DNA from: Gracilibacillus lacisalsi DSM 19029
GTDB lineage: Bacteria; Bacillota; Bacilli; Bacillales; Amphibacillaceae
Reading direction: 5' to 3'
Length of the DNA: 64,000 nt
NCBI RefSeq assembly: GCF_000377765.1
Contig: NZ_KB898663.1
Span: 248,001-312,000 of the forward strand
Shown here: positions 13,908 through 49,941 of the stretch, piece by piece
Layout of the letters: the number at the start of each line of letters is the position of its first letter
Numbering within the stretch: the first letter of the stretch is position 1
Program-made: the position numbers and the translations under genes
Notes under the pieces: generated by a model
Database searches by the model: none
Told to the model about the DNA's origin: nothing
The model's input: only the letters and a program-made list of their open reading frames with translations

Positions 13908-13963
13908 ATACTTTCTGTACTTACAATCTAGAGCTCTTTACTAATACTTTGCGATATAAATAA

Positions 13964-33893: not shown

Positions 33894-34290
33894 AAAGGCT
33901 TTAACTCCTTTTTTTATGTTAAAGAAATATGAAGCTACCTTTAATGAAACCACCAGTAAAAACTTAAGATCGATCTATTGATTGGTTCAGATAATACACA
34001 ATGAAGGATAACGCTTACATTTTATTGAGATTCAACTTGTTTTTGATCACGTGTAATATCTGTATATCTCCTTAAACCACTAGTACGATTGTTAGTAAAA
34101 AGAACATCCCTTTTTTGTACATTTTTCACGCTCCAATCCATTTACTTAAAATATATAAATTTCTTCATCCTTGCATGGTAGCATTTTAATATCTTAGTAT
34201 AATTAATATTCTTGAATTCAAAAATAATTCCGGGAATTCAAACTTTCTATTTTGAATAAAATGGAAGTTGTAATAAAAGAAGATTCTCCT
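33894..34290. other. Gene-free spacer upstream of the GntR gene
   Basis: About 400 bp of AT-rich DNA between the GntR start and the structured repeat at 34291. The only notable site is the dyad AATTCCGGGAATT near 34225. It presumably holds the GntR promoter; I could not choose a convincing -35/-10 pair. Confidence 0.5.
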
Positions 34291-34460
34291 AAGAAAAGCG
34301 CAGAGCGCCCGATTAGAAACGTAGCGACTGGAACGAATTAACTGAGATAAAGGAATCACGGTGAGTTTACGAACCGATGATGACTTATCGTAGGGCAATT
34401 CGTGAAGTCGCCTAGTTTCTGGGCGCTCGGAGCTAGACATCTGCGCAAAATTCATACCTT
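34291..34460 (+). repeat. Dispersed structured repeat, copy 1
   Basis: About 170 bp nearly identical to 41434-41601 and 49511-49681, from AAGAAAAGCGCAGAG to a terminal TTCATACCTT. The ends pair (GAGCGCCC with GGGCGCTC), as do AGAAAC with GTTTCT, CGAATT with AATTCG and GATAA with TTATC, giving one long imperfect hairpin with a small inner stem-loop. It lies between the GntR gene and a dehydrogenase operon end. Confidence 0.85.
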
Positions 34461-34474
34461 CTTATCTTAGAAAA

Positions 34475-34512
34475 AAAAAGACATCCACCAACTTTAGTGA
34501 ATGTCTTTTTTA
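34475..34512 (-). terminator. Terminator of the Lpl-type ABC/dehydrogenase operon
   Basis: AAAAAGACAT and ATGTCTTTTT form the stem, with CAC/GTG above it, directly after the stop codon of the last dehydrogenase gene on the minus strand; a long T-run follows. Confidence 0.8.
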
Positions 34513-34520
34513 ATAAACAT

Positions 34521-35597
34521 CTATTCAATTTTCATTGCTTTTTCTTGTGCTTCAATAGATAATTCCGCTACTCTAAAAGCGTGTTCCTGTGTCATAGCAT
34601 TTTCTGTGTTATTTAAACAATCCAAAATAAATGCTCCGAAATATGGAAATCCTACTTTTCCAGATAACTCGAAATGTTTTTCTTCTTTATCATTGACTAG
34701 ATACAGGTGATTGGAGGTATTATGATTAGCAATATCAATATACTTCCTAATCTCAATATAGCCTCCTGTTCCTAAAATAAAAGCTCTTCCATCTCCCCAT
34801 GTACCTAGACCATCAGGTGTAAACCAGTCTACTCTGAAATAGAAGGTTGCACCATTATCTGCTACTAGTGTTGCATCACCAAAATCTTCAAAGTCTGGAT
34901 GGTCTTTATAATGATAATTGGCAACTTTACTGTGTAAGACTTTAGCATCCTTCGCACCTGCAAAGTGAAGGAACTGCTCAATTTGATGGCTACCAATATC
35001 ACAGAGAATACCTCCGTAGTATTCCGGATCAAAAAACCAGTCCGGACGATTGGCAGCATTTGCTCGGTGTGGACCAGTTCCAATTACTTGAATCACCCGG
35101 CCAATTTCTCCCTGTTCAATTAACTGACCTGCATAAATGGCACTTTCTACATGTAATCTTTCACTATAGTAAACGCCCCACTTCAAACCAGTTTCTTCCA
35201 CTAATCGACGAGCTTTTTTTACTTGTTCCTGCTTAATGAAGGCGGGCTTATCCGCAAAAAAATGTTTACCGTGATGTAATGCTTTTTCCCCTATCTCATA
35301 ACGACTTACCGGGATACTTGCACATGCAATTAAATGTATCGAATCATCATTATAGATAATATCTTCGTTATCAACAGTTTTTACTTGAGGGAATTTGTTA
35401 CAAAATGCTTCAACCTTCTTTGGATCAGGATCATAGACATATTCTAAATCTGCTCCCGCTTCAATCAGACCATTACACATTCCATAAATATGACCATGAT
35501 CTAAACCAATTGCAGCAATTCGAAATTCCCCAACATCAACTACTTTATTGGATTTTCCTTCTGGCGCATAATTCATACCATCTTTTTTGTTAACCAT
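34521..35597 (-). CDS. Gfo/Idh/MocA family oxidoreductase
   Basis: A 358-residue NAD(P)-dependent sugar or cyclitol dehydrogenase-like protein. N-terminal Rossmann region FRIAAIGLDHGHIYGMCNGL; the family's EKP lysine motif appears as FFADKPAF, and the C-terminal domain includes GGILCDIGSHQIEQFLHF. ATG 35597 follows AAGGAGG; the longer frame adds 12 residues overlapping the upstream gene. Last gene of the five-gene operon, after a second member of the same family. Confidence 0.87.
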   Translation of the reverse strand: MVNKKDGMNYAPEGKSNKVVDVGEFRIAAIGLDHGHIYGMCNGLIEAGADLEYVYDPDPKKVEAFCNKFPQVKTVDNEDIIYNDDSIHLIACASIPVSRYEIGEKALHHGKHFFADKPAFIKQEQVKKARRLVEETGLKWGVYYSERLHVESAIYAGQLIEQGEIGRVIQVIGTGPHRANAANRPDWFFDPEYYGGILCDIGSHQIEQFLHFAGAKDAKVLHSKVANYHYKDHPDFEDFGDATLVADNGATFYFRVDWFTPDGLGTWGDGRAFILGTGGYIEIRKYIDIANHNTSNHLYLVNDKEEKHFELSGKVGFPYFGAFILDCLNNTENAMTQEHAFRVAELSIEAQEKAMKIE

Positions 35598-35616
35598 AGT
35601 AACCTCCTTACAAAAT

Positions 35617-36771
35617 CTATTCGTACTTACCACCAGTTGTAATTTCCGTATCAGAGAAATTCTCTACCGATGCTCCTTTTTCATAGAAGTGTTTCGCATT
35701 TTGTAAAATACCTTCTCTCGTGTAAAAAGGACTCTCTTTCGTTAATGGTAATGTCACTGTACGTTGGTAGTTGGCAGATTCATAGATTGCTGTAATCAAC
35801 TCTAAAGTTTGACGTCCTTGTATGCCATCAACCAATACCGGTTTATTTTCTATAATCGCATCAAGTACATTTTCGATCTGACCGGGATGTCCTTCATACT
35901 CTAAATCTGGCTGACTGTTAAATGCTTCCGTCAATAACTGCTCGAGTTCGGGATCATCATTCGGAAAGCCATTTTCCTTTGAAGTTGACGCCTTTACCTT
36001 CCATGGTACGGAGACACGTGCTTTCTTACCTTGGAAGATCAACTGCTGCTCTTCTCCGTGATGAACAACAGAGCTAGTGATTTGCGCTAAGCTCCCATTC
36101 TGATAACGACCAATTGCAATAGAAATGTCCTCTACTTCAGCATTGTCATGAGCTGTATTACTTGTTACTGCCGTTATTTCGGATGGCATGCCTCTCATCC
36201 ATTGGAAAATATCAATATGATGTACGGCATGATTTAATGTACAGCCGCCGCCTTCTTTTTCCCAAGTACCTCGCCACCATAAATCATAATAGCTGTGTCC
36301 TCTCCACCAGTAAGAATCAACTTGTGTATGGAGAATGGGGCCCATTAATTCTGTTTCGAGTACATGCTTCAATTTCATCATTGGTGTAGTAAATCGATTT
36401 TGAGCGACAACCGATAAAATTTTGTTATTCCGTTTGCCGGCTTCAACCATTGCATCACATTCTTCTAGGGAAGATGCCATCGGTTTCTCAACCAGTACAT
36501 GTTTTCCAGCGTCCAAACTGTTAATCGCAATATCTGCATGAGTATATGGTGGTGTACAAATAGAGATTAGATCGACCTCTTCCTTGTCAATCAGATCCTG
36601 ATAATTGTCAAATACATGCGCATCTAAGTTGAAGTCTTGTTTTATTTTTTCCGCTTTTTCTGGATAAATATCACATAATGCAACAATCTTACACTGACTA
36701 GGAAATTGTAGATAACTCTTTACATGAGATGGACATATTGCTCCTGTACCAATGATCGCTACTTTTAACAT
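35617..36771 (-). CDS. Gfo/Idh/MocA family oxidoreductase
   Basis: A 384-residue member of the family. Rossmann motif VAIIGTGAICPSHV, catalytic-lysine motif HVLVEKPMASS and C-terminal domain with GGCTLNHAVHHIDIFQWM. These enzymes oxidise or reduce a hydroxyl of sugars, inositols or their derivatives with NAD(P). It follows the permease genes of an Lpl-type transporter, so it probably processes the imported sugar. AGGAGAG precedes the ATG. Confidence 0.9.
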   Translation of the reverse strand: MLKVAIIGTGAICPSHVKSYLQFPSQCKIVALCDIYPEKAEKIKQDFNLDAHVFDNYQDLIDKEEVDLISICTPPYTHADIAINSLDAGKHVLVEKPMASSLEECDAMVEAGKRNNKILSVVAQNRFTTPMMKLKHVLETELMGPILHTQVDSYWWRGHSYYDLWWRGTWEKEGGGCTLNHAVHHIDIFQWMRGMPSEITAVTSNTAHDNAEVEDISIAIGRYQNGSLAQITSSVVHHGEEQQLIFQGKKARVSVPWKVKASTSKENGFPNDDPELEQLLTEAFNSQPDLEYEGHPGQIENVLDAIIENKPVLVDGIQGRQTLELITAIYESANYQRTVTLPLTKESPFYTREGILQNAKHFYEKGASVENFSDTEITTGGKYE

Positions 36772-36835
36772 GAAATCTCTCCTATCTATTAAAAATTAAT
36801 AACTTCCATAAAGTAAGGTTGCCTAAAAATATTAA

Positions 36836-37714
36836 TCATTCTTTTTCCGCTCCTAAAACGATACCTTTCACAAAATATTTCTGGATAAACGGGTAGACAA
36901 CTAACATAGGTAATGCTGAAATAAAAATTTGCGCTGACTCTACTGTACGTTGAGACATGTTCTTCAATTCCTGAGCATCCGTCACATTACTTAAATCTTT
37001 CTTAACGACGATGGACTGTAAGAAGGTTTGAAGTGGATAATTTCGTTCATTAGTCATATAAATCAATCCGTCAAACCATTGATTCCAGTGAAATACCATT
37101 GTAAACAAGGAAACGGTTGCAATCGCCGGAATAGAAATTGGTAAGTATATCTTTAAGAATATCGTAAAATGGCCTGCACCATCAATAAATGCGGATTCTT
37201 CCAACGACTTTGGTACGGATGTACGAAAAAAGTTTAATAGAAGAATTAAGTTAAATGCATTGATCGCTGTTGGTAACACTAATGACCAGATTGTATCCCC
37301 CAAGCCTAAGCCTGTTACAATAATATAGGTTGGTACAATACCACCGTTGAATAACATCGTAAATACGAAAAACCACATATACCATTTACGTCCTTTAAAC
37401 TCTTCATCATACTTGGATAGGCCATAAGCGGCACATAATAATAACCCCATGGAAATAATCGTACCTAGGACGGTTCGCTGTATAGCAATTAGTAATGATC
37501 TGATAAAATTATCGTTACCCATCGTTTTGTCATAAGCATCCCATGTAAAATCAACTGGCCATAACGATACCATGTTACCAGAAGCTGCTGCACTGCCACT
37601 TAATGAAACTGCTAATATATGAATGAGTGGCAAGACACAAATAAATGCAAGGAATGCTAAAAAAACATAGTTGAAGGCGGTGAAAATTCTATAGCCTTTA
37701 GTTTTATATATCAT
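36836..37714 (-). CDS. ABC transporter permease, LplC/YtcP type
   Basis: A 292-residue CUT1 permease of the LplC branch, recognised by the loop EESAFIDGAGHFTIF, the segment FNGGIVPTYIIV and C-terminus VKGIVLGAEKE. Six membrane segments. AGGAGG precedes the ATG. It works with the LplB-type gene 11 bp upstream and the binding protein before that. Confidence 0.87.
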   Translation of the reverse strand: MIYKTKGYRIFTAFNYVFLAFLAFICVLPLIHILAVSLSGSAAASGNMVSLWPVDFTWDAYDKTMGNDNFIRSLLIAIQRTVLGTIISMGLLLCAAYGLSKYDEEFKGRKWYMWFFVFTMLFNGGIVPTYIIVTGLGLGDTIWSLVLPTAINAFNLILLLNFFRTSVPKSLEESAFIDGAGHFTIFLKIYLPISIPAIATVSLFTMVFHWNQWFDGLIYMTNERNYPLQTFLQSIVVKKDLSNVTDAQELKNMSQRTVESAQIFISALPMLVVYPFIQKYFVKGIVLGAEKE

Positions 37715-37725
37715 GATATTACCTC

Positions 37726-38640
37726 CTAGAAAATTCTCCAGTTTGCATATTTATAAGCAAGTCGATACCCTAAGACGATCAAGAAGAAACTGATCACAGA
37801 TTTAAATAAACCAACCGCTGTACCGAAACTGAAGTCACCATCAATTAAAGCTCGTCGATAAACATACGTATCAATGATATCTCCTGTTTTATAAACTAGC
37901 GGATTGTACAGGTTGAAAATCTGATCAAAACCAGCATTTAAAATATTTCCAAGAGATAATGTCCCAACAACTATAATAATCGGCATCATTGCTGGTAAGG
38001 TAATATATAACGTTTGTTTCCATCGATTCGCACCATCTATATGTGCTGCTTCATATAAATTAGGATTTACTGCTGTTATGGCAGCTAAGAAGACGATTGT
38101 GTTAAAGCCTGTTTCTTTCCATAAATCCGTTATAATCACTGTAGGTACAAACCACGTATTATCTCCTAGGAAAAAGATTGGTTCTACACCAAAAATCCCA
38201 ATAAACTGATTAAATAAACCACCTTCCGGAGATAGTAAATCTAGTAATATACCACCGAGAATTACCCATGAAAGAAAATACGGTAAATAGATAACCGTTT
38301 GTACCGTTCTTTTGAATACATTGTGGTACACTTCATTTAACAATAAAGCAATCGCGATCGGTACAATTAATCCGAAGATCAATTTTAACACCGAAATAAT
38401 TAAAGTATTCAATATGACTCGACGTGCATGATCTGTTTGCATGATGGTATGAAAATGTTCAAATCCAATCCATTCAGATTGAAAAAAGCCTAACCATGGT
38501 TTGTAATCCTGAAATGCCATGATCAAACCACCCATCGGAGCATATTGGAAAAATAGTGCTACAATAACGGCTGGTAATATTAATATATGTAAAGGCCAAT
38601 TACGCCTCATGTTCCACTTTTGTTTTTTCTTAACCTCCAT
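37726..38640 (-). CDS. ABC transporter permease, LplB type
   Basis: A 304-residue CUT1 permease of the LplB branch (PMGGLIMAFQDYKPW near the N-terminus, EAA loop YEAAHIDGANRWKQT). Six membrane segments after a basic N-terminus. AAAGGAGG precedes the ATG. Separated from the binding-protein gene by a strong hairpin. Confidence 0.88.
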   Translation of the reverse strand: MEVKKKQKWNMRRNWPLHILILPAVIVALFFQYAPMGGLIMAFQDYKPWLGFFQSEWIGFEHFHTIMQTDHARRVILNTLIISVLKLIFGLIVPIAIALLLNEVYHNVFKRTVQTVIYLPYFLSWVILGGILLDLLSPEGGLFNQFIGIFGVEPIFFLGDNTWFVPTVIITDLWKETGFNTIVFLAAITAVNPNLYEAAHIDGANRWKQTLYITLPAMMPIIIVVGTLSLGNILNAGFDQIFNLYNPLVYKTGDIIDTYVYRRALIDGDFSFGTAVGLFKSVISFFLIVLGYRLAYKYANWRIF

Positions 38641-38677
38641 CTCATATCCTCCTTTACCATCTGTATAAATGAAGGAA

Positions 38678-38715
38678 GGTGTGAATTAAATAAAGATAAA
38701 TATTTAATTCACACC
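38678..38715 (-). promoter_or_regulatory. Perfect 15-bp intercistronic hairpin
   Basis: GGTGTGAATTAAATA is followed after 8 bases by its exact reverse complement. It lies between the binding-protein stop and the LplB-type start, with no T-run on the minus strand (TTCCTTCATTT follows), so it is more likely an mRNA processing or stability element than a full terminator. Confidence 0.7.
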
Positions 38716-38729
38716 TGATGCTTCACTAA

Positions 38730-40379
38730 TTATTCTGCACTTTGGACTTGATCATACCATTCATTTACTTCTTCAGTAACTTGATCTCCACCACGTTCTT
38801 TCCATTCTTCAACAAAATCATCGAACGCATCGACCTCCACGTTACCCATTACAATATCAGCAAAAATTTCTAATTCGAGTTGCTCAAGATTAGACCATTG
38901 GTCAGCCATCGTTTCTGTAGGTGCACCCGTAAATTTGTTCTCAATGCGAATGTCATTGGAACGGTTGATAATAGCTGCTGCTTCGATATATTCAGGATCT
39001 CTTTGTGCTAAGTCGGTTTCATATGCACCAGATGGCTCTTTATCAGGATTTTCGTGGAATTCCTGTAATAAGCCATACATTTTATATGGGAAAGTTGGAA
39101 CGTTTGTCGGTAAGAAATAGCGACCCGGATCGACTTTTTCCTCACCAGTTTCTTCTTCAATTACGTTTGGATCATAGACAGGCTCACCATCAACCATAAT
39201 ATAGTCGTAACCTTCGAATAATCCATCTTCAAAGTACTCAGAGTCATTTAAAATGTATCCATATGTCTCATCCCAATATTCAAAAAATTTATCCCAGTCA
39301 TCAAATTCTGAACTAAACAAAAATGATCCTGTTAATAAAGATTCACCTTTACGGCCCATTTCACCGTCTGGACCACTAGGTAGTTGATAAGGCTTGATAA
39401 CGGCATCTGGGTCATTCGTTTTTGTTTCCCCAAACGGCCAATCCCATGCCCATGGTGGGCCGAATGCTAAACCAGCTTTACCGGATACGAAGATCTCTTG
39501 TGCTTGGTCTGCTGGAGCGATTGCCAGTTCCTGAGAAATATATCCTTCTCCCATCCATTCTTTCATCTTAACTAAGCCATCTTTCATACTTTCTTGAATA
39601 GAACCGTAAACAAGAACTCCGTTTTCATCCTCTGACCATAGTCCAGGAACATAGTCACCGTACATACCGAATACTGGGCTAGTATCACCAATATTCGTTC
39701 TACCAAAGCCAACTTCACCAGCAGACAGTAACAAACCAAAGGTATCATCTTCACCATTACCATCTGGATCTTCATTTACAAAAGCATCCATCACTGCTTC
39801 TAATTCTTCTAATGTTTCTGGCGCCTCCAGACCAAGATTATCTAACCAATCCTGACGTACCCACATTAATGATTCGGTACCGTTACCACCAGAGAATCTT
39901 GGAAGTCCGTATCTTTCGCCATCAATAGTAGCCTGGTTAAAGGCATCAGAAAATTCATTAAAAATCTCTTTTAAGCGATCTGGAGCATGCTCGTCAATCA
40001 CTTCTCCAATCGGTTGAACCTTTCCAGACTCAACCAAGTCAGCTATTAATTGCGTATCTGTCACTTGAAATACATCTGGTAAAGGCTCATTGGATGACAT
40101 CATTAAACGAATTTGTTGATTATACTGTTCATCATTTGGACGTGTCCATAAGTATTCAAAGTTAATGCCTAATTCCTCTTCTGCCCATCTTGTTACAACA
40201 TTATCGTTAACATCTTCACCATCTTTGTAAACGGTACCATCATCTTGTGTACGTACCGTCGTGATAGTTGTTAAACCATCTTCTTCAGAGTCGTTACTGC
40301 TGTCACTACTTTCTATACAACCTACCAATAAAATAATGATAATGAACACAAACAATGCACTGAATAATTTTTTTTGCAT
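38730..40379 (-). CDS. Extracellular solute-binding lipoprotein, LplA type
   Basis: A 549-residue large binding protein with lipoprotein signal (IIIILLVGCIES). Length and motifs (WVRQDWLDNLGLEAPETLEE, DPDGNGEDDTFGL) are typical of the LplA/YtcQ branch that handles oligosaccharides. GGGAGGG precedes the ATG. First gene of the operon running to 34521. A cre-like box lies 61 bp before the start. Confidence 0.88.
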   Translation of the reverse strand: MQKKLFSALFVFIIIILLVGCIESSDSSNDSEEDGLTTITTVRTQDDGTVYKDGEDVNDNVVTRWAEEELGINFEYLWTRPNDEQYNQQIRLMMSSNEPLPDVFQVTDTQLIADLVESGKVQPIGEVIDEHAPDRLKEIFNEFSDAFNQATIDGERYGLPRFSGGNGTESLMWVRQDWLDNLGLEAPETLEELEAVMDAFVNEDPDGNGEDDTFGLLLSAGEVGFGRTNIGDTSPVFGMYGDYVPGLWSEDENGVLVYGSIQESMKDGLVKMKEWMGEGYISQELAIAPADQAQEIFVSGKAGLAFGPPWAWDWPFGETKTNDPDAVIKPYQLPSGPDGEMGRKGESLLTGSFLFSSEFDDWDKFFEYWDETYGYILNDSEYFEDGLFEGYDYIMVDGEPVYDPNVIEEETGEEKVDPGRYFLPTNVPTFPYKMYGLLQEFHENPDKEPSGAYETDLAQRDPEYIEAAAIINRSNDIRIENKFTGAPTETMADQWSNLEQLELEIFADIVMGNVEVDAFDDFVEEWKERGGDQVTEEVNEWYDQVQSAE

Positions 40380-40439
40380 TTGCTGACCCTCCCGAGAAAT
40401 TTAATAAATTGTACCTAATTAACCCTACCTCAAGATCCG

Positions 40440-40454
40440 GTATAACGCTTTCAT
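40440..40454 (-). promoter_or_regulatory. Candidate cre box of the LplA operon
   Basis: On the minus strand ATGAAAGCGTTATAC fits the CcpA consensus apart from the last two positions. It lies 61 bp upstream of the binding-protein ATG, where catabolite repression of a sugar operon would be expected. The rest of the 40380-40804 spacer is AT-rich without a gene. Confidence 0.4.
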
Positions 40455-40683
40455 TTTTTCGGTATTAACTGGAGATTCATCACCCCTTTCACCGGTATTC
40501 CAAATACTTTTTTTATTTGGAATAGATATTGGTACTAAAGTAAAATAAGCGATAACATTCCTACTTCCAGCTATTAATCTGCTATGTAAAGCACACAAGA
40601 AATACTAGTATGGTAGTTTAGATAATAGAATGTATTGCCCCTCTATACATTATTTGATATGATAAAGGAAACAATCTGATATA

Positions 40684-40697
40684 ACTAGTATACTAGT
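40684..40697. promoter_or_regulatory. Perfect 14-bp palindrome, possible operator
   Basis: ACTAGTATACTAGT is an exact palindrome about 110 bp before the lone YesL gene and in the divergent spacer with the LplA operon. A half-related ATACTAGTATGG lies near 40607. GntR- and LacI-family sites have this form; no regulator gene adjoins it. Confidence 0.45.
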
Positions 40698-40804
40698 GAA
40701 CGATTAATTTGTTTAATTATAACGCGTTTTTATGAAATGTACAATATTTTTTCTGGATAATTTGTCAAAATGCTGATCAAAAACCTAATGTAGAGGTGAA
40801 TACA

Positions 40805-41458
40805 ATGAATCAAAATGGGTTGATTACAAAACTTTATACAGTGATGGAATGGATAACAAGAATCGCGTATGTTAATGTTCTCTGGATTTTATTTACTGTA
40901 TTTGGTCTTTTATTATTCGGTGTTGCGCCAGCTACTGCATCGATGTTTACAATAACTAGACAATGGTTGAGAGGGAACAGTGACATTTCTGTTTTTAAAA
41001 CGTTTTGGCGAGCCTATAAAATACACTTCGTCCGAGCAAACCTTTTGTTATGGCCAATAGCTCTTCTTGCCTATATGTTATATATTAATTATCAATATTT
41101 GTTTTTAGTTCCTCCGTCTGTCTATTACTTAATGCTCTTTATTTTTGCAACATTGACACTTATTTTTTTAATATTATTGTTTTATATCTTTCCAGTGTTG
41201 GTGCACTTTGAACACAAAACATTTGATTATTATAAAATCGCACTATTAACAGGAGTCTCTAATCCATTTCTTACGGTTACCATGTTTGTTACTACTTTGC
41301 TGATCGGATTATTGACAGAACGTATACCGGGGATTTTGCCATTTTTCCCTATGTGTCTTTCCAGTCTTATTACCATGCACCTGGCATTATTAGCTTTTAA
41401 AAAATTACAAAAAAAGAGTGTGAATCGACCAATAAGAAAAGCGCAGAGCGCCCGCTAA
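40805..41458 (+). CDS. YesL family (DUF624) membrane protein, copy 3
   Basis: A 217-residue YesL protein (VNVLWILFTVFGLLLFGVAPAT, then MFTITRQWLRG) with about five membrane segments. ATG 40805 follows GAGGTG by 6 bases; the GTG nine bases earlier overlaps that site. Its last seven codons and stop lie inside the dispersed structured repeat, so the natural C-terminus may have been replaced when the repeat arrived. Divergent from the Lpl-type operon it probably belongs with. Confidence 0.8.
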   Translation: MNQNGLITKLYTVMEWITRIAYVNVLWILFTVFGLLLFGVAPATASMFTITRQWLRGNSDISVFKTFWRAYKIHFVRANLLLWPIALLAYMLYINYQYLFLVPPSVYYLMLFIFATLTLIFLILLFYIFPVLVHFEHKTFDYYKIALLTGVSNPFLTVTMFVTTLLIGLLTERIPGILPFFPMCLSSLITMHLALLAFKKLQKKSVNRPIRKAQSAR

Positions 41459-41601
41459 AAAACGTAGCGACTGGAGCTAATCAACTGAGATAAAGGAATC
41501 ACTGAGAAAAGTGAACCGATGATGTCTTATCGTAGGACGATTCGTGAAGCCGCCTAGTTTTTGGCGCTCGGAGCTAGACATCTGCGTAAATTTTATACTT
41601 T
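41434..41601 (+). repeat. Dispersed structured repeat, copy 2
   Basis: Same element as at 34291 and 49511, same orientation, more diverged. AAAAAC/GTTTTT replaces AGAAAC/GTTTCT, keeping the stem paired; the inner hairpin is TCACT/AGTGA instead of TCACGGT/ACCG-TGA. It starts inside the end of the YesL frame at a convergent junction. Confidence 0.85.
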
Positions 41602-41615
41602 GCTTACTTATTAAA

Positions 41616-41658
41616 AAAACGAACGCAAGGACATTTAACTAGTCTTTGCGTTCGTTTT
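41616..41658. terminator. Bidirectional terminator between YesL and dehydrogenase
   Basis: AAAACGAACGCAAGGAC pairs with GTCTTTGCGTTCGTTTT (17 bp, one G-T) around a 9-base loop. The converging YesL and Gfo/Idh/MocA genes both end beside it. Confidence 0.85.
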
Positions 41659-41682
41659 ACATGAATCCAGTTAATGCACTAC

Positions 41683-42702
41683 CTACAAGTAAACTTTCTC
41701 ACCCTTTTCTGCACTTTCTATTGCTGCAAATACCATTTTCATACTATGAATATTATCATGACAATCTGTTTCTGCTTGACGATTTTCTTCCAAAGCAGAA
41801 AACATTTCATCTAAGCAGCCAGCATGTTCCTCTTTTCCAGTCCAACTATTGGGTATCGTGCTTTGTTCCGTTTGTTTAAAAAAAGCTGTGTCAGCTGGAT
41901 TCTTGACGATTTCGGTTGTAAGATGATTAAAGCCGTCCCATTTAGCTGTCCCTTTCGTTCCGATAATTCGCCAATCTCCGTTCCATGACGTGCGAAATCC
42001 TTCTGCTGCCCAGGAACCACGGAATGTACAAACAGTGCCATCTGCCATTTCAAAGATACAAATAGCAGAAGCATTACCATTATACCATGAACCCGTTGGA
42101 TTGAATTCATGACAATAGACGGAGACAGCATTGCTATTTGAAATATATCTCGCCTGATCAAATGTATGTATTGCCATATCGACAATTAACGGATGATCCA
42201 TTTGCTCACGAAATCCGCCAAAATGAGGGCCTAAGTAGAAATCAACGTTTAATGTATGAACTTTTCCTAATCCATCACTTTCCAAGAAATGGCGAAGGGA
42301 TCTTATTTCTTTGAGATACCGTCGATTTTGCATGACACTATATGTTTTGCCTGTCCGTTCTGCAATTTTTTTCACTTCCAGAGCATCGTTTAAAGATTCC
42401 GCCATCGGTTTTTCACCGAATACATGACAACCAGCTTCAAGTGCTGTTGTAACAACTTGTTTATGAGCAGCTGGAATGGTCACATCGAAGACGAGATTGG
42501 CTCCTGTTTCTTTTATGGCTGTTGCTATATCTGTAAAAATAGGTACGTGTAAGTTTCGTTGATCAGCCTTTTTCTGAGCTGCTTCCTTATTGAGGTCGAC
42601 CAACCCTACTATTGAGGCATTTTCACGTTGTTCCACGTAGTCCAACCAAACATTTGCCATACCGCCACATCCTGCAACTATAATGTGATGTTTTGTAGAC
42701 AT
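41683..42702 (-). CDS. Gfo/Idh/MocA family oxidoreductase
   Basis: A 339-residue NAD(P)-dependent dehydrogenase-like protein. Rossmann motif IIVAGCGGMANVWLD, lysine motif HVFGEKPMAES, and a substrate-domain stretch LIVDMAIHTFDQARYI with the usual Asp/His pair. It is the last gene of the alpha-xyloside operon, after the GH31 gene, and probably acts on a sugar released by that enzyme. GAAGGGG precedes the ATG. Confidence 0.88.
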   Translation of the reverse strand: MSTKHHIIVAGCGGMANVWLDYVEQRENASIVGLVDLNKEAAQKKADQRNLHVPIFTDIATAIKETGANLVFDVTIPAAHKQVVTTALEAGCHVFGEKPMAESLNDALEVKKIAERTGKTYSVMQNRRYLKEIRSLRHFLESDGLGKVHTLNVDFYLGPHFGGFREQMDHPLIVDMAIHTFDQARYISNSNAVSVYCHEFNPTGSWYNGNASAICIFEMADGTVCTFRGSWAAEGFRTSWNGDWRIIGTKGTAKWDGFNHLTTEIVKNPADTAFFKQTEQSTIPNSWTGKEEHAGCLDEMFSALEENRQAETDCHDNIHSMKMVFAAIESAEKGEKVYL

Positions 42703-42745
42703 AAACTCACCCCTTCACCACTCCATGATAACGGATTCATTCAGA

Positions 42746-42796
42746 GAATACTAGAATTTAGTATTCGCGAGATAAGTGTAAATATCTCGCGAATAC
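42746..42796 (-). promoter_or_regulatory. Two mutually exclusive hairpins between GH31 and dehydrogenase genes
   Basis: GTATTCGCGAGATA (42761-42774) pairs perfectly with TATCTCGCGAATAC (42783-42796) around 8 bases. The neighbouring GAATACT (from 42746) can instead pair with AGTATTC (to 42766), which is part of the first stem. There is no T-run, so this looks like an mRNA switch or processing site rather than a terminator. Confidence 0.6.
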
Positions 42797-42802
42797 TCTG
42801 CA

Positions 42803-45067
42803 TTATATTTCAATTGTAACGTTTTGTTTTCCAGCGTTTACGGATACTTTCTTATGGCCGACAATTTCAATATGATAGGCTTGCTCGACACCGGTTGTCT
42901 GTACTTGAATCTTATTAGCATTTCGTTCTGCTACAATTGCCCCAATCTCTTCACCTTTTGCGTTAACAAGTGTGCGTTCCGCTTTTTGTTTGTTTGATAA
43001 CTGATAGATTTTAAAGGTTACACCATCGGTATAATCATAGACGGGATTCTCTTCACTTGTTCCTACCGGTAAAATGGTATTCGACTTTACAAAAAGCGGC
43101 AGGCTAAAGTAATCGTAATGTTCTTTTATCCATGTACCACCATTCACTACTTCTCCAGTTAAAAGGTGTGTCCATCTACCTTCAGGCAAGTAGAATGAGC
43201 CGATTCCTTCCTCATTAAAGATTGGTGCTACAAGTATGGAATCTCCCAACATATATTGACGATCTAATGTTTCACATAGTGGATCATCTGGGAATTCTAA
43301 CAACATCGAACGCATAACAGGGACGCCTGTTTTACTATTTTCCACTGCTTGCCCATAAAGATAAGGCATTAAACTATTTTTTAACTTAGTAAAGTGACGC
43401 GCAACATCTACAGCTTCGTCATCAAAGTTCCATGGTACACGATAGGAAGAGCTACCGTGAAAACGGCTATGGCTTGAAAGTAAGCCGAATGCTGTCCAAC
43501 GTTTGAATACATCCGGAGTCGCAGTATTTTCAAAACCGCCGATATCATGACTCCAGTAACCAAAGCCTGAAGTTGTTAATGATAAACCGCCACGTAAACT
43601 TTCGGCCATCGCATCATATGTGGAATCACAGTCACCACCCCAGTGTACCGGGAATTGTTGCCCACCTGTAGTGGCTGATCGCGCAAATACAACAGCTTCC
43701 TCTTCACCTTTTACATCTTTCAGTAAATCAAACACTACTTTGTTGTATAGATAAGCATAGTAGTTGTGCATTTTCTGCGGATCTGATCCATCATGGTACA
43801 CGACATCCGTCGGGATTCGTTCACCAAAGTCTGTTTTAAAGGAATCTACACCCATATCCAATAATTCCTTTAGCTTGTCTTGGAACCATTTGCATGCATC
43901 TGGGTTCGTAAAATCCACAATTCCCATACCCGCTTGCCATAAATCCCATTGCCATACATCACCGTTTGGCTTCTTTAATAAATAACCTTTTTCCATTCCT
44001 TCATCAAAAAGTACTGACTTCTGTGCAATATATGGATTGATCCAAACACAAATTTTCAGTCCTTTGTCTTTCAGTCGCTTTAACATGCCTTCTGGATCTG
44101 GGAAATTACGACGATCCCAAATAAAGTTACTCCACTCGAATTCTTTCATCCAAAAACAGTCAAAATGAAAGACACTTAGTGGGATACCACGTTCTGCCAT
44201 GCCATCAACAAAATGATTAACCGTTTCCTCATTATAGTCTGTCGTAAAAGAAGTGGATAACCATAATCCAAATGACCATGCAGGAGGCAAAGCAGGTTTT
44301 CCTGTTAATTCTGTATAACGACTGACTACTTCTTTTGGTGAAGGACCATTAATAAAGTAATAATCTAAATATTCTCCTTCCACACTAAACTGAGCGCGAG
44401 ATACCGTTTCAGAGCCTAACTCATAGCTCACTTCTTCAGGGTGATTGACAAAAACACCATATCCTTTACTACTTAAATAAAAAGGAATATTTTTATATGA
44501 TTGTTCAGAGCTTGTACCACCATCTTTGTTCCAAATATCAATTGATTGACCGTTTTTTACAAATGGCGTAAAACGTTCACCTAAACCATAAAGATGTTCT
44601 CCTACTCCAAGGCGTAATTGACCACGCATATATGTTTTATTTGCCGGTCCATCAATCCATGCTAGCCCTTTTCCATCAGCATCTGTTAATCTACCATTAG
44701 CATTTTCAAATGATAATGCAAAATTTTGTTTTGATATTTGTAAGCGAAGAGTTCCACTCGTGAAAGAAACATACTCTTCATTCTCTTCTAACGCTATCGA
44801 ATTGTGTTGGTCACTAATATCAAAGTTCGGATATTTCGCTTTGCCACCTTTAAAATGCCATGTTTCAACACGAATCACTTCATCAACGGGGGATGAAATT
44901 TTAATTGTTAACAATGGTCCATCTAAAGTGTCCCCACGATGATTGAGATATTTACATGGTGCATATAAGGTTACCGAACCATCTATCTCTTCCACCTCAT
45001 GAATTAATTTTGGAAAATGTATTTCATACCCCTCTCTTACTAACCAATTACCGTCTGTAAACTTCAT
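42803..45067 (-). CDS. yicI: Alpha-xylosidase, glycoside hydrolase family 31
   Basis: A 754-residue GH31 enzyme of the YicI type. An N-terminal beta-sandwich (about 1-240) precedes the TIM barrel, which contains the nucleophile aspartate in SFKTDFGERIP (about D413) and the acid/base aspartate in HWGGDCDSTYD (about D479), then C-terminal beta domains. KTDFGERIP is characteristic of alpha-xylosidases rather than alpha-glucosidases. No signal peptide: it cleaves imported alpha-xylosides such as isoprimeverose units of xyloglucan in the cytoplasm. ABC genes lie directly upstream. Confidence 0.92.
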   Translation of the reverse strand: MKFTDGNWLVREGYEIHFPKLIHEVEEIDGSVTLYAPCKYLNHRGDTLDGPLLTIKISSPVDEVIRVETWHFKGGKAKYPNFDISDQHNSIALEENEEYVSFTSGTLRLQISKQNFALSFENANGRLTDADGKGLAWIDGPANKTYMRGQLRLGVGEHLYGLGERFTPFVKNGQSIDIWNKDGGTSSEQSYKNIPFYLSSKGYGVFVNHPEEVSYELGSETVSRAQFSVEGEYLDYYFINGPSPKEVVSRYTELTGKPALPPAWSFGLWLSTSFTTDYNEETVNHFVDGMAERGIPLSVFHFDCFWMKEFEWSNFIWDRRNFPDPEGMLKRLKDKGLKICVWINPYIAQKSVLFDEGMEKGYLLKKPNGDVWQWDLWQAGMGIVDFTNPDACKWFQDKLKELLDMGVDSFKTDFGERIPTDVVYHDGSDPQKMHNYYAYLYNKVVFDLLKDVKGEEEAVVFARSATTGGQQFPVHWGGDCDSTYDAMAESLRGGLSLTTSGFGYWSHDIGGFENTATPDVFKRWTAFGLLSSHSRFHGSSSYRVPWNFDDEAVDVARHFTKLKNSLMPYLYGQAVENSKTGVPVMRSMLLEFPDDPLCETLDRQYMLGDSILVAPIFNEEGIGSFYLPEGRWTHLLTGEVVNGGTWIKEHYDYFSLPLFVKSNTILPVGTSEENPVYDYTDGVTFKIYQLSNKQKAERTLVNAKGEEIGAIVAERNANKIQVQTTGVEQAYHIEIVGHKKVSVNAGKQNVTIEI

Positions 45068-45088
45068 ATTTTTCCCTCCTGTATTAAA

Positions 45089-45913
45089 TTATTTAACTGC
45101 GCCTTCAGAAATACCATCAATAATATATCTTTGTAGGAACATATATAAAACAATAATCGGAATCATCGCAATAACTAAAGCTGCTAAGGCAAGATGCCAT
45201 TGTGTGGAATATTCACCAAAGAAATAAAACGTTTTTAACGGGATGGTGTACATGCCTTCTTTGTTGATCACAAGTGATGGAAGTAAGTAATCATTCCAGA
45301 ACCAGATCGCATTCAGAACAATAACCGTTACCGTCGTTGACTTTAACATGGGCAACATGATGTACCAATAAACTTGAAATCTATTACAACCATCAATAAT
45401 CGCCGCCTCATCTAATGCTTTCGGAATCCCTTTCATTGCACCTACGTATAAGAAAACCGCTAGACTAGACCCTAACCCTAGATACATAATGGCTAAACCA
45501 GTTCGATTTAATAAATCTACTGCACCAAATAGCGAAACTAAAGGAATCATAATAGACTGAAAAGGAATCAGCATACAAATAGCAAACAAAAAGTAAATAG
45601 CTGAACTAGTTTTTCCTGGTTTGCGAGATAATGCATACGCTGCCATCGAAGTACAAATGACAATGATCAAGATACTTCCACCCGTTACTACAACGGAATT
45701 AAAAAACGTCAACAGGAAATCTAATTCGGCAAAAGCTGTTGGATAATTTTCCAATGTTGGTGTTCCTGGAAGTCCTAAAGTACTTTCGAAAATATCTGAT
45801 TTTGTTTTAATCGAATTAATGAATACTAGATAGAAAGGATATATCCACAATAAAGAGACAACAGCACCTATAAACATCATCGTATACTTATGTGTACGTT
45901 CTTTGTTTCTCAT
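45089..45913 (-). CDS. Carbohydrate ABC transporter permease (MalG type)
   Basis: A 274-residue CUT1 permease with EAA loop DEAAIIDGCNRFQVY and six membrane segments; C-terminus IDGISEGAVK. Its ATG overlaps the stop of the upstream permease gene (ATGA), so the pair is translationally coupled. The GH31 gene follows after 21 bp. Confidence 0.88.
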   Translation of the reverse strand: MRNKERTHKYTMMFIGAVVSLLWIYPFYLVFINSIKTKSDIFESTLGLPGTPTLENYPTAFAELDFLLTFFNSVVVTGGSILIIVICTSMAAYALSRKPGKTSSAIYFLFAICMLIPFQSIMIPLVSLFGAVDLLNRTGLAIMYLGLGSSLAVFLYVGAMKGIPKALDEAAIIDGCNRFQVYWYIMLPMLKSTTVTVIVLNAIWFWNDYLLPSLVINKEGMYTIPLKTFYFFGEYSTQWHLALAALVIAMIPIIVLYMFLQRYIIDGISEGAVK

Positions 45914-46773
45914 AGTTCTGTCTCCTTTTTACGAGTAATATAAAGTTGGATAACAGATATTAAAGTGATGATGATTAAAAAGACAATCGCTTTTGACTGA
46001 GCATATCCCATATCTTGCACTTTAAATGCCGTATCATAAATATTCATGGTAGCCATCTCTGTTGATCCAAATGGTCCTCCATTTGTTAAGGCCATGTTTT
46101 GGTCATATACTTTAAAAGCATTTGATAATGTTAAAAATAAACTTACCGTAAACGCAGGAATAATAAGTGGAAACTTAACCTTCCAAAAACTTTGCCATTT
46201 ATTTGCTCCATCTATCGTTGCTGCTTCTAGCAGTTCTTTTGGAACATTATTCAAAAAGGATATATAAATAACCATGATATAACCACTCATTTGCCATACA
46301 AACAGGATTACCAATCCCCAAAAGCCCGTTTCTGTGTCAGACAGCCAACCTCTAAAAAACTCGATACCAGTCACATCTGCAATTCCTGTAAAAGCTTTTA
46401 AAAAGACGAATTGCCAGATAAAACCTAAAATAATCCCACCAATTAAGTTTGGCATAAAATAAATCGTTCGAAATAATGTACTTACTTTCCCTAATTTTTG
46501 TGTAACTAATAAAGCAAAAGATAATCCTAATACATTAATTCCGATCACAGAAGCAGCTGAAAAAGCTGCAGTAAATCCTAAGCTATAAAGAAACTGATCA
46601 TCTGAGAATAACTTGATATAATTATCAAAACCTACAAATGATGTTACTTGAAAGCCATCGTATTCCGTGAATGAATAATAAACACCTTGAAAGAAAGGTA
46701 TGATTAACACGAGTAATAAGGCTAGCAGAGTTGGTAATAAGAACAACCAGTATGTGCGGTTTTTAAAATTCAA
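45910..46773 (-). CDS. Carbohydrate ABC transporter permease (MalF type)
   Basis: A 287-residue CUT1 permease if started at TTG 46773, which has AAAGGAG 8 bases upstream; the frame is open 19 codons further but that part overlaps the intercistronic hairpin. EAA loop LEAATIDGANKWQSF; six membrane segments. Part of the alpha-xyloside uptake system. Confidence 0.85.
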   Translation of the reverse strand: MNFKNRTYWLFLLPTLLALLLVLIIPFFQGVYYSFTEYDGFQVTSFVGFDNYIKLFSDDQFLYSLGFTAAFSAASVIGINVLGLSFALLVTQKLGKVSTLFRTIYFMPNLIGGIILGFIWQFVFLKAFTGIADVTGIEFFRGWLSDTETGFWGLVILFVWQMSGYIMVIYISFLNNVPKELLEAATIDGANKWQSFWKVKFPLIIPAFTVSLFLTLSNAFKVYDQNMALTNGGPFGSTEMATMNIYDTAFKVQDMGYAQSKAIVFLIIITLISVIQLYITRKKETEL

Positions 46774-46801
46774 TCTTCCCACTCCTTTAAACCATGTGTA
46801 T

Positions 46802-46831
46802 GATGGAGCAAAAATATGTTTTTGCTCCATC
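46802..46831 (-). promoter_or_regulatory. Perfect 13-bp intercistronic hairpin
   Basis: GATGGAGCAAAAA and TTTTTGCTCCATC form a perfect stem with a 4-base loop between the binding-protein stop and permease start. In the minus-strand message no extra T-run follows, so partial attenuation or 3' protection of the binding-protein message is likely. Confidence 0.65.
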
Positions 46832-46845
46832 TTTCTTGGGGATCT

Positions 46846-48141
46846 TTAACGCATTTCTGAAAATGCATTGCTAGTTGCTTCCTCAAATTCTTCCCAGCTT
46901 TGTTGTTCACCTAAATATTTTTGAAACTCTGGGTGTAACGCTTCAGAGAAAAAGCCATCAGGATACTGGTTATTCGCCCAAATTTTCCCTTTTCCATCTA
47001 ATAAATACTGATATACTTCGGCAGATACTGGATCTGAAATGGAATCGGTATCATAACCTTCATGGGAAGGAACATATTTAAAGTCTTCAACAATTAATTC
47101 TTTTCCTTTGTCAGAAGTATACATCCAATCAATAAATTTCTTAGACTCTTCTACTACTGCTTCATCTTTCTCTTTATTAATTCCCCAATACCATGACGGA
47201 CCGGCAACAATTTTCCCTTCGGTATCGGAAGAAACAAAGAGAGGAAGAATGCCAAGTTTTTCTTGTGCAAAACTTTCGTCCATACTATTTAATGTTGGAA
47301 CGATCCAGTTACCTTGGTGAATAATCGCTGCTCTATCATTTGCAAATAATTCTTCTACTGACGTACTGTAGTCTAATGATAGAATAGGTTGATAGTTATA
47401 CTGGTTAAATAAATCCGTATATTCTTTCATACGTTCACCATATTCAAAATTCAGTTCATCTGATTCGAAAGCAGTCTTAACATCATTACCAAATTCCGGA
47501 GCCGTAAAGTGACTTGAGAATTGACTTACGACCCAGTCTTCTTTTGCACTAAAGGCAAATACCGAATCTATCCCTAATTCTTCTTTTTGAGAATCAATAG
47601 TTTCTACTGCTTCCACAAATTTGTCGTAACTATCAATCGTTGACGGATCTACCCCTGCTCTTTCAAAGATATCTTTGTTAATCATCCAACCGTATCCTTC
47701 AATATTTAAAGGAATGCCATATGGTGTACCATCCATAGAAGCCCCCTCTAAAGTTCCGTCAATAGCTGTTTTAGCACTCTCCATATCTGATACATCTAAC
47801 AAATATTCACTATATTTTTCGACATCCGACAGACCACCTAATAAAAAGATCGATGGTGCTTCACCAGAAGAAAACTTAGCTTGTAATGCCGATGGAGCAT
47901 CTTGCCCACCACCAACTGTTGTTACATTAATTTTTACATTTTCATTTTCACTCTCATAAATATCGATTAAGTTATTTAGTTGATCCGTTGTTTCTACTTT
48001 TATATTAAACAAATCAACAACTACTTCATCCCCTTGACCTGATGACTCTCCATTGTCACCGCTTTCATTTGAACTACACGCAACAATTAAACTCATAGAA
48101 GCTAACATTATGAACGAAATAAAAACTAATCTAAATTTCAT
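46846..48141 (-). CDS. Sugar ABC transporter substrate-binding lipoprotein
   Basis: A 431-residue family 1 binding protein with lipoprotein signal (SMSLIVACSSN). The second of two adjacent ATGs (48141) is chosen because AAGGAGG lies 6 bases before it. The mature protein has the usual two-lobe motifs (VVDLFNIKVETTDQLNNLI, GPSWYWGINKEKD). It probably binds xyloglucan-derived or other alpha-xylosyl oligosaccharides, as judged from the GH31 gene in the operon. Confidence 0.88.
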   Translation of the reverse strand: MKFRLVFISFIMLASMSLIVACSSNESGDNGESSGQGDEVVVDLFNIKVETTDQLNNLIDIYESENENVKINVTTVGGGQDAPSALQAKFSSGEAPSIFLLGGLSDVEKYSEYLLDVSDMESAKTAIDGTLEGASMDGTPYGIPLNIEGYGWMINKDIFERAGVDPSTIDSYDKFVEAVETIDSQKEELGIDSVFAFSAKEDWVVSQFSSHFTAPEFGNDVKTAFESDELNFEYGERMKEYTDLFNQYNYQPILSLDYSTSVEELFANDRAAIIHQGNWIVPTLNSMDESFAQEKLGILPLFVSSDTEGKIVAGPSWYWGINKEKDEAVVEESKKFIDWMYTSDKGKELIVEDFKYVPSHEGYDTDSISDPVSAEVYQYLLDGKGKIWANNQYPDGFFSEALHPEFQKYLGEQQSWEEFEEATSNAFSEMR

Positions 48142-48181
48142 CATTGACCTCCTTAGATTTGATATCAATAGTTGATAGAAT

Positions 48182-48211
48182 TAGTACCTGTTACAACTTT
48201 CACCTTCCAAT
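48182..48211 (-). promoter_or_regulatory. Promoter of the alpha-xyloside transport operon
   Basis: On the minus strand TTGGAA (48206-48211) and TACTAA (48182-48187) are 18 bases apart, about 40 bp before the binding-protein start and just downstream of the palindromic operator. This is a moderate sigma-A match. Confidence 0.5.
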
Positions 48212-48220
48212 GATTCGCGA

Positions 48221-48238
48221 TGATGTACGTACATCATT
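48221..48238. promoter_or_regulatory. Perfect 18-bp palindromic LacI-type operator
   Basis: ATGATGTACGTACATCAT is an exact palindrome with a central CG-containing TACGTA, positioned immediately upstream of the -35 of the operon promoter. It is the likely site of the LacI-type regulator encoded just upstream. Confidence 0.75.
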
Positions 48239-48324
48239 TCAAGGTGAAAAAGTAGATGAAGCACGCAATGTAAAAGCGCATTCATCTTTAGGTAACTCAT
48301 CTATTTATTAATATGATATATCAG

Positions 48325-48348
48325 AAAATGATGTACGTCAATCATTTT
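48325..48348. promoter_or_regulatory. Second operator, overlapping the regulator's stop codon
   Basis: A 24-bp dyad with AAAATGAT and ATCATTTT arms around GTACGTCA. It shares ATGATGTACGT with the perfect palindrome 107 bp away (centre to centre) and includes the last codon and stop of the LacI gene. Confidence 0.6.
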
Positions 48349-49417
48349 CCTGTTTATTAATTAAATTATTTTCATTATTGATATAATATTTTGCATTAGC
48401 CTTCGTTACGATTTCAGGTTTGACAATATATGAACTGATATCGTTGATATTATCATCTAAAAAGTAGTTCATTATTTTTTTCAATGAAAAGTTAGCTTGT
48501 GCTACCGGATCTTGACAGATTGAAGCAGTGATAAGATCCTTTTGAAACGCATGATAAATAGTTTCGTTAATATCATGACCGATGATGACAGGCTTTTTCT
48601 CCCATTTCTCTATATTTGGGATAATCTTATCTAATAAACCACCAGCTACGTAGATAGCATCTGCAGCCAGCAGCAATTCTTTATGATCTTTTAACAATTT
48701 TTCTACTTGTTCCTCTTCGATATAAGCAGATGTATCATACTTAATTTTTTGTAATTGATAATTTACGTTCAATTTTTCGAAATAATCAGTAAATCCATTT
48801 TCTTTATTTTGCATTTGGAAGGTGTTTTCTTTTTCTCTTATAAATACAATATGTTGTGCGCTTCTACTAAATAAGTAGATTAGCTCTCCAGCCAGAAAGC
48901 CCGCATCATAATAGTCACTACCTACATATGCTATACGTTGACTATTTGGTACGTCTGTGTTTATGGTAAACACTGCTATCTGTTCTTTTGTTGCTTGATC
49001 GATAATTTTTTCAAGTGGTTTCGTATCATGTGCCGCTATCACAATTCCTTGATATTCCTTCGAATCTACAATTCCCTGCAAATATTCTACTTGCTGATTT
49101 TCAGGCACTGTATGTACGCGATGGACATCGACTTTTAATCCGAACTCAGAATAAAGCATGGCTCCTTCTTTAATTTCAAAATCTAAGTCGTCCCAAAAAT
49201 AATTAGGAAATACAGGAAGAATAAAGGCAATATTAATTACCTTTTGCGTTGCTAAGAATTTAGCTGCTCTATTCCGTTGATAACCTAACTCGTGAGCTTT
49301 AGATTTTACTTTCTGTATCGTCTTTTCACTTACCCCTTTCCTATTATTTAAAACTCGATCAACTGTAGCTGGAGATAAACCTAGTTCATCTGCTATCATT
49401 TTTGCTGTTACTCGCAT
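48338..49417 (-). CDS. LacI family regulator of the alpha-xyloside operon
   Basis: A 359-residue LacI-type regulator: helix-turn-helix TAKMIADELGLSPATVDRVL with hinge NNRKGVSEKTIQKV, then a periplasmic-binding-protein-like domain (FILPVFPNYFWDDLDFEIKE). The effector domain resembles the subgroup that binds free sugars. GAGGTGG precedes the ATG. The palindromes between it and the binding-protein gene suggest that it represses the following transport operon. Confidence 0.88.
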   Translation of the reverse strand: MRVTAKMIADELGLSPATVDRVLNNRKGVSEKTIQKVKSKAHELGYQRNRAAKFLATQKVINIAFILPVFPNYFWDDLDFEIKEGAMLYSEFGLKVDVHRVHTVPENQQVEYLQGIVDSKEYQGIVIAAHDTKPLEKIIDQATKEQIAVFTINTDVPNSQRIAYVGSDYYDAGFLAGELIYLFSRSAQHIVFIREKENTFQMQNKENGFTDYFEKLNVNYQLQKIKYDTSAYIEEEQVEKLLKDHKELLLAADAIYVAGGLLDKIIPNIEKWEKKPVIIGHDINETIYHAFQKDLITASICQDPVAQANFSLKKIMNYFLDDNINDISSYIVKPEIVTKANAKYYINNENNLINKQEND

Positions 49418-49510
49418 TTGTTAGCCACCTCTATACAAGAATGTTTTACTTTTATGTAATCGTCCTCATTATTTACACTTTTTATCTGATTGTCAAGTTT
49501 TTCATAGTAT

Positions 49511-49681
49511 AAGAAAAGCGCAGAGCGCCCGTTTAGAAACGTAGCGACTGGAGCGGATCAACTGAGATAAAGGAATCACGGTGAGTTTACGAACCGATGA
49601 TGACTTATCGTAGGGCGATTCGTGAAGTCGCCTAGTTTCTGGGCGCTCGGAGCTAGACAGGCACCCAATTTTTATACTTTC
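49511..49681 (+). repeat. Dispersed structured repeat, copy 3
   Basis: Third copy of the element at 34291 and 41434, in the same orientation. Stems: 49523-49530 with 49641-49648, 49535-49540 with 49635-49640, 49545-49548 with 49627-49630, 49554-49559 with 49617-49622. It is followed directly by a different large inverted repeat. Confidence 0.87.
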
Positions 49682-49739
49682 TTTATAAGAAAAACCGGGA
49701 AAGCCCGAAAAGTTAACAGGTACAAACGTTGTTGAACAG

Positions 49740-49941
49740 TTTCATAGCGGAGGCCGTCCACTTCCACTCCTACGGGATGACTTTCGACTAAGATCCACTT
49801 TGGTAAGCGCTCTTTGCTTACCAAAGTTAGCTTAGGCGAAAATCCCGTGGAAAGGGAAGTGGGCAACCGCAGCGATGGTTTCCTGTACAAGCTAACTTTC
49901 AAAATAACTACTGCATTTAACACAGTCATTGCGCTAATTTT
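49740..49941. repeat. Large inverted-repeat element with nested perfect hairpin
   Basis: CCACTTCC (49758-49765) pairs with GGAAGTGG (49855-49862), and ACGGGA and CTTTCG in the left arm pair with CGAAA and TCCCGT in the right arm. A perfect 12-bp hairpin sits at the centre (ACTTTGGTAAGC, 49797-49808, with GCTTACCAAAGT, 49816-49827). The tail 49896-49941 also occurs at 13862. It resembles widespread Bacillaceae intergenic repeats with ACTCCTRCGGGA arms. Confidence 0.75.

Follow-up and report, generated by a model that had tools for sequence, protein, structure and literature searches.

A folded, gene-less repeat behind intrinsic terminators of Gracilibacillus lacisalsi and other Bacillaceae, a probable MITE-like element

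What is the folded sequence that recurs three times, always in the same orientation, between the genes of one stretch of the Gracilibacillus lacisalsi DSM 19029 genome? We analyzed 64,000 nucleotides (the window) of contig NZ_KB898663.1 (positions 248,001 to 312,000), in which an original prediction, made from the letters alone, had described a structured intergenic element with compensatory base changes. The element is a folded, gene-less repeat, common in Bacillaceae and without an Rfam family. We read its copies as non-autonomous elements, similar to miniature inverted-repeat transposable elements (MITEs) and targeted to intrinsic transcription terminators, and we assign this reading, whose mechanism we infer, a probability of about 0.7. 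The predicted structured intergenic repeat with its pairing kept has stood; the prediction had given no function. Our results point beyond it to a mobile gene-less repeat at terminators, whose right end is longer than the core and which is found across numerous genera, also as part of mixed arrays.

The fold and its distribution

All three copies in the window lie on the plus strand, in a single orientation, and scored 147 to 170 bits against our fold model (R1); the predicted structured copies are real. Each consists of a core of about 149 bases, forming an imperfect long hairpin, and a tail, which in the home genome usually ends in TTTTATACTTTCTT. In copies 1, 2 and 3 the tail probably reaches about 34466, 41607 and 49684. 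The features are as follows.

34290..34466, plus strand: copy 1, whole element, T/AAGAAAAGCGC ... ATACCTTCTTATC; probable ends, placed by analogy with the burst in genome G015 (see below)
34291..34439, plus strand: copy 1, conserved folded core (model R1, 170.1 bits)
34470..34512, minus strand: intrinsic terminator of the gene at 34521-35633 (minus strand), reading toward copy 1 (sequence; terminator test, locus L118)
41433..41607, plus strand: copy 2, whole element; probable ends
41434..41580, plus strand: copy 2, conserved folded core (model R1, 147.2 bits)
41611..41659, minus strand: intrinsic terminator of the gene at 41683-42702 (minus strand), reading toward copy 2 (sequence; terminator test, locus L028)
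49510..49684, plus strand: copy 3, whole element; probable ends
49511..49659, plus strand: copy 3, conserved folded core (model R1, 169.8 bits)
49685..49912, no strand assigned: ATAAGAAAAACCGGG plus a body belonging to a different repeat family, right of copy 3; no ordinary terminator (sequence, relatives)

An alignment of the three copies reproduced the base changes that had been described. The pair AGAAAC/GTTTCT of copies 1 and 3 is AAAAAC/GTTTTT in copy 2, and CGAATT/AATTCG is matched by CGGATC/GATTCG with a G.T pair in copy 3. Copy 2 carries one stem mismatch (CTAATC), and its inner TCACT/AGTGA is a local replacement of the tip.

We then measured covariation in two larger alignments, using column shuffles and slid partners as nulls, which are not a phylogenetic null. 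RNAalifold folded 21 divergent copies into 37 pairs, 20 of them altered on both sides (92 cells), and 95.7% of the cells paired. Column shuffles yielded 12.2 such pairs and 28.3 cells, and slid partners at most 9 and 14; the observed number of further pair types was equalled by 8 of 500 shuffles. Among 117 model matches (114 rows from named loci and 3 from the window), 93.9% of the cells paired and double-sided changes were present in 32 of the 37 pairs (562 cells), compared to 20.3 pairs and 155 cells after shuffling and at most 23 and 144 after sliding. The latter alignment was fitted to the structure and hence leans toward it, and 27 of its 117 rows score below 60 bits. Covariation is strong, and the structure stands out against shuffles and slid partners on every measure; the stems are not broken as often as they are kept. 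The signal is uneven along the hairpin. Helix 6 (59-65/102-107) shows no double change in alignment A2 and is thus uninformative about this part of the fold. Within helix 7, three of the seven pairs are invariant. Little variation occurs in the inner helices that contain GATAAAGGAAWCA / TGWTGACTTATC, a motif that is nearly invariant across genera.

The folding energy of copy 3 was -70.6 kcal/mol on the plus strand (z -6.1), with a z of -3.7 on the minus strand. Moreover, GU/UG cells exceed AC/CA cells on the plus strand (31 versus 12 in alignment A2; 143 versus 36 in alignment A3), and the plus strand is therefore the folding strand. A subfamily represented by L077 and L084 in the home genome and by L310 carries an insert of about 57 bases, always at the same place of the inner loop.

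BLAST recovered 43 pieces in the home genome (G000). Six of these pieces join up into three copies, each interrupted by 57 bases, which leaves at least 40 copies, counted on the best 40 of 98 candidates scored. Forty of the 43 pieces start at base 1 or 2; the remaining three correspond to second halves of the split copies. Among relatives, 56 of 101 genomes matched by BLAST, the home genome included, with about 8 candidates scored per genome. The fold model, at an E value of 0.001, matched 173 of 249 sampled genomes of the host order, representing 78 of 105 genera; this search took at most 12 candidates per genome and applied stricter filters. A phylum-wide sample of 249 genomes gave matches at 1e-5 in 2, both of the host order. 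Three members of that sample (G000, G099 and G102) are listed as belonging to the order, G102 being without a match, and the other 246 probably lie outside it; for 227 of these, all without a match, this placement follows from the kinship sorting. Pontibacillus, Siminovitchia, Virgibacillus, Oceanobacillus, Neobacillus, Lederbergia, Niallia, Halobacillus and Bhargavaea are hosts among the matches listed. The prediction's mention of similar intergenic elements in Bacillaceae is borne out by many genera. No match was detected at E 1e-5 in plasmid and phage collections, from which near relatives may be left out. The proposed comparison with Rfam (release 15) returned no family at gathering score over the whole window; around copy 3, the best weak match was sR14, a C/D small nucleolar RNA (17.9 of 38 bits, E 0.013). 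In open-access texts we found no description of the element, and gataaaggaatcac occurs in none among the matches listed.

Position behind terminators and recent multiplication

A terminator reading toward the element accompanied 47 of 64 copies, compared to 4 and 2 of 64 for the left flanks and 10 of 320 for shuffles. The test set comprised 78 copies, 14 of which were dropped as their right end was not recognized. The right-end patterns were drawn up after these very copies had been viewed, and orthologous and duplicated sites are among the 64 (e.g., L090/L091, L021/L168 and L006/L136). A second test covered the named genomes, where a minus-strand terminator lies within 150 bases downstream in 35 of 62 copies and a plus-strand one in 22, compared to 2 and 3 upstream. 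This set drew on 67 of the 117 rows, those scoring at least 105 bits apart from the window's 3 copies and from L319 7712, L353 2880, L325 731, L340 and L371 1184; 5 of the 67 lay at locus ends and were dropped, and some records share a genome. The energy cut-offs of the two tests differ (-6 and -8). Where a named copy has a tail (n = 14), a T-tract lies 10 to 19 bases beyond it in 12. The order on the terminator-bearing strand is hairpin, T-tract, a few bases and then the element. Of 26 home-genome loci with a readable right-hand gene, 22 have this gene oriented toward the element (30 loci entered, 3 not read and one without a right gene). The element thus lies mostly behind a gene's terminator, and its folded strand is antisense to the gene concerned. 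A pairing between tail and terminator T-tract, seen by eye only, was dropped.

Comparison of close relatives revealed filled and empty sites. At locus L007, the element is present in G000 and G009, and G016 reads GAGAAATAAGAAAAATATCCC with nothing between. The orthologous terminator site in G002 (L106) contains other DNA, whose beginning resembles the sequence to the right of the L072 copy, and this site may be a re-used target. Copy 3 of the window is absent from G009 (L145), which reads TTCATAGGAATAAGAAAAACCGGG; the neighbouring 499 bases are 98.6% identical. Over about 195 kb, G000 (contig C2) and G009 (contig C17) show 20 differences of 35 to 900 bases. Among them is a short form of the element, 55 bases in length, located behind a terminator in G009 and absent in G000, where the empty site is at about position 20496 of the window. 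Three are repeats of other families whose ends look alike (AAGAAAA or T-rich on the right), and the remaining 16 are other sequence.

The clearest multiplication was seen in the complete genome G015, where 12 of 13 inspected copies measure 202 to 203 bp and share a pairwise identity of 0.961 to 1.000; the 13th belongs to another subtype and was left out of this burst set. The burst copies start with GAACAAAGGCGC (one with GGGC) and mostly end with ATACTTTCTTGAC. Their left flanks, up to GAACAAAGG, are unrelated and without a consensus, and their right flanks read about TYATAAGAAAAA. Together, these comparisons show that the repeat has recently multiplied in one genome and that its presence at a site varies among close relatives. 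The element, about 150 to 205 bp in size, contains only short chance open reading frames (ORFs) and no gene.

Nature of the element

In the mechanism that we propose for a MITE-like element, an enzyme supplied in trans would recognize a hairpin followed by a brief T-rich run, once in the target terminator and again at the element's own end. The element's own recognition site would be the GCGC stem followed by TTTTCTTA. Because the element would carry its own hairpin and T-rich site, later insertions could land beside it and give tandem and mixed arrays. Single-stranded DNA might be captured at the replication fork, and the enzyme, or an RNA form of the element, would depend on the conserved internal motif.

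The strand bias of one genome would fit capture at the fork. In G015, 39 of 40 scored copies are oriented with the minus strand along the strand whose GC skew is positive, compared to 246 of 319 sampled genes on the leading strand (p 4e-4). Coarser skew sampling gave 36 of 40; finer sampling placed a switch at 2.94 Mb and added three agreeing copies. A second genome, G002, gave 30 of 39 by skew and 31 of 39 by halves, which does not differ significantly from its genes (0.71, p 0.17); 21 of its best 22 rows agree, a subset chosen afterwards. G011 showed no clear partition, and its best value of 18 of 22 was matched by 72 of 500 shuffles. The candidates scored were the best 40 of 82 in G015, the best 40 of 62 in G002 and all 32 of 32 in G011. 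The burst genome G015 suggests that the lagging-strand template is preferred; G002 and G011 do not bear this out.

Besides these two genomes, several results weigh against the MITE-like reading. By our first test, 17 of the 64 copies have no terminator, copy 3 of the window (L066) among them. Of the 62 named copies, 22 also have a downstream plus-strand terminator, reading away from the element; terminator directions are not cleanly separated where terminators work both ways. Filled and empty sites cannot separate insertion from precise loss, nor can pairing alone separate an action as single-stranded DNA from an action as RNA. The 12 burst copies of G015 show no consistent target duplication (lengths 0 to 3; sum 13 versus 7.3 when shuffled, with 5.2% of shuffles as high). 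A long terminal inverted repeat was not seen by eye, only about 8 to 10 weakly matching end bases. Finally, no partner enzyme was found among Y1 transposases, group II maturases and reverse transcriptases, other families not having been searched. Y1 transposases are absent from G000, G002, G003, G004 and G011. A search of 17 genomes of the genus found neither group II maturases nor reverse transcriptases in G000 and G016, both rich in copies. No gene recurs as a neighbour: within 600 bases of 80 named loci (595 ORFs), no protein cluster has more than 3 members. We also considered a Y1 element sharing the repeat's ends and rejected it; of 30 Y1 loci (L171-L200, taken from a larger number of matches), three showed a single hit each to the end patterns.

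The likeness to MITEs can be stated against a published definition, which gives 70 to 300 bp and no coding capacity (PMC3733652). The element shares the short size and the lack of coding capacity and, as judged by eye, lacks terminal inverted repeats of 15 to 30 bp. As these long inverted repeats are missing, we call it no more than MITE-like. A transposase with a same-ended element was not seen among the 30 Y1 loci, nor a recurring gene beside the 80 named loci, other transposase families not having been searched.

Other known systems resemble the element in part. The repeat bcr1 is an imperfect palindrome, and bcr1 to bcr3 are, like our element, dispersed intergenic repeats of similar size. 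They occur in the Bacillus cereus group, have been likened to MITEs and are held to be mobile (PMC6542083, PMC3446304); a table gives bcr1 as 147 or 167 in size (PMC2267715), and the family is said to be confined to B. cereus sensu lato and associated with TTTAT repeats (PMC6542083). In contrast, our element has hosts beyond that group, including Pontibacillus, Oceanobacillus, Neobacillus and Siminovitchia, shows no flanking TTTAT repeats at the ends of the 12 recent G015 copies and, at E 1e-5, matches nothing among the collected plasmids. By two tested features the element is not bcr1, being set apart by the description of bcr1 and not by sequence. Group IIC introns insert just behind intrinsic terminators. 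Unlike them, the element encodes no maturase, and its folded strand is antisense to the terminator strand; no ribozyme domain of group II introns reached the Rfam gathering score over the window or matched at E 5 around copy 3.

The rival that survives best holds that the copies are resident RNA elements, functional parts of untranslated regions (for processing, stability or insulation) kept by selection after an old dispersal. We consider it unlikely. It would account for the G-U pairs kept on one strand, for the near invariance of GATAAAGGAAWCA / TGWTGACTTATC across genera and for the 15 of 26 loci, all with both neighbours scored, at which the left gene reads toward the element on the folded strand. 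However, both neighbours read the other way at 11 of 26 loci, leaving the folded strand without an upstream gene, and resident elements fit poorly with copies that differ between relatives, with recent multiplication and with the lack of a recurring neighbour gene.

Quite unlikely is a retroposon, in which the folded plus-strand RNA is reverse-transcribed onto the 3' end of the terminator hairpin strand, as in a bacterial analogue of short interspersed nuclear elements (SINEs). The plus strand does fold, the joining strand is the one with the hairpin and T-tract, target duplications are not consistent, and the burst genome G015 has both the strand bias and 7 reverse-transcriptase matches. Nevertheless, no reverse transcriptase was detected at E 0.001 in G000, G006, G010, G011, G013 and G016, and left-truncated copies look rare among the best 40 of 98 candidates of G000, with L060 as one clear case of truncation.

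Repetitive extragenic palindromic (REP) repeats moved by REP-associated tyrosine transposases (RAYTs) are very improbable: the repeats are palindromic and extragenic, and longer, RAYT-like Y1 proteins (judged by length) occur in several relatives, but size and tags differ from the 20-40 bp palindrome with a GTAG or CGTC tag that defines REPs (PMC3733652), and the repeats do not flank RAYT genes, the core or a core piece lying in only 3 of 20 regions of about 6 kb chosen by hand around longer Y1 proteins (one, L259, a broken fragment), upon which the RAYT link was rejected.

If the MITE-like reading holds, an abundant structured mobile element is present in most sampled genera of an order and has no Rfam family, its terminator target spares genes, and it offers a testable case of hairpins selecting insertion sites.

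Arrays, related repeats and neighbouring genes

Head-to-tail units were found in Niallia taxi (L324), Bacillus sp. FJAT-49711 (L313) and Bacillus sp. SD088 (L304). The units are separated by a few variable bases or, in L304, by tails. They share common ends, GAAAAGCGC... and ...GGAGCTAGACA-like, and the body between is either the core of our element or a second hairpin body, which suggests that bodies are exchanged between constant ends. A match to the Bacillaceae-1 RNA (RF01690) lies inside one L304 unit that has the element's ends (5302-5366), and a second match (5742-5807) was not placed in a unit. This structured RNA of Bacillaceae has 67 model positions and no match in the window. The Bacillaceae-1 RNA family may be part of mobile repeats too. 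If the MITE-like reading is right, Bacillaceae structured repeats, perhaps this RNA among them, may be mobile DNA and not host regulators. Integron attC cassettes come to mind as folded units in head-to-tail arrays with differing bodies; our units differ in carrying no genes and in being dispersed, and no integrase search was made.

A wider reading combines these observations. The repeats would be modular single-strand mobile cassettes, widespread in Bacillaceae, with constant hairpin ends and exchangeable folded bodies. An enzyme would place these cassettes behind terminators, possibly using the lagging-strand template, and would insert them either directly as DNA or from a folded RNA that is reverse-transcribed in a SINE-like manner. 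We offer this version tentatively and regard it as doubtful.

Other repeats resemble the element at their ends. A second set, seen at 13904-13915 (plus strand) of the window and in loci L061-L089, has the right end TTTTATACTTTC and other bodies (e.g., ...ACTTCGCTTAACGCAGTCATTGCACTGATTTTATACTTTC); its 12-base end occurs 50 times in the genome versus 3 for the reversed control. An autonomous copy may lie between the shared ends; ORFs are present upstream of TTTTATACTTTC at 17 places in 16 regions. Some copies starting with AACAAA[AG]GC (L044, L045, L054, L143 and L304) have in their tail TTATCCACA, which we take to be a DnaA-box sequence. Right of copy 3, positions 49699-49912 of the window are part of a third repeat family, which is repeated in G009, G002 and G016.

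Near the copies, between 33216 and 52026 of the window, six checked genes resemble genes of sugar metabolism: GntR and LacI regulators, two Gfo/Idh/MocA oxidoreductases, a DUF624 protein and a family 42 beta-galactosidase.

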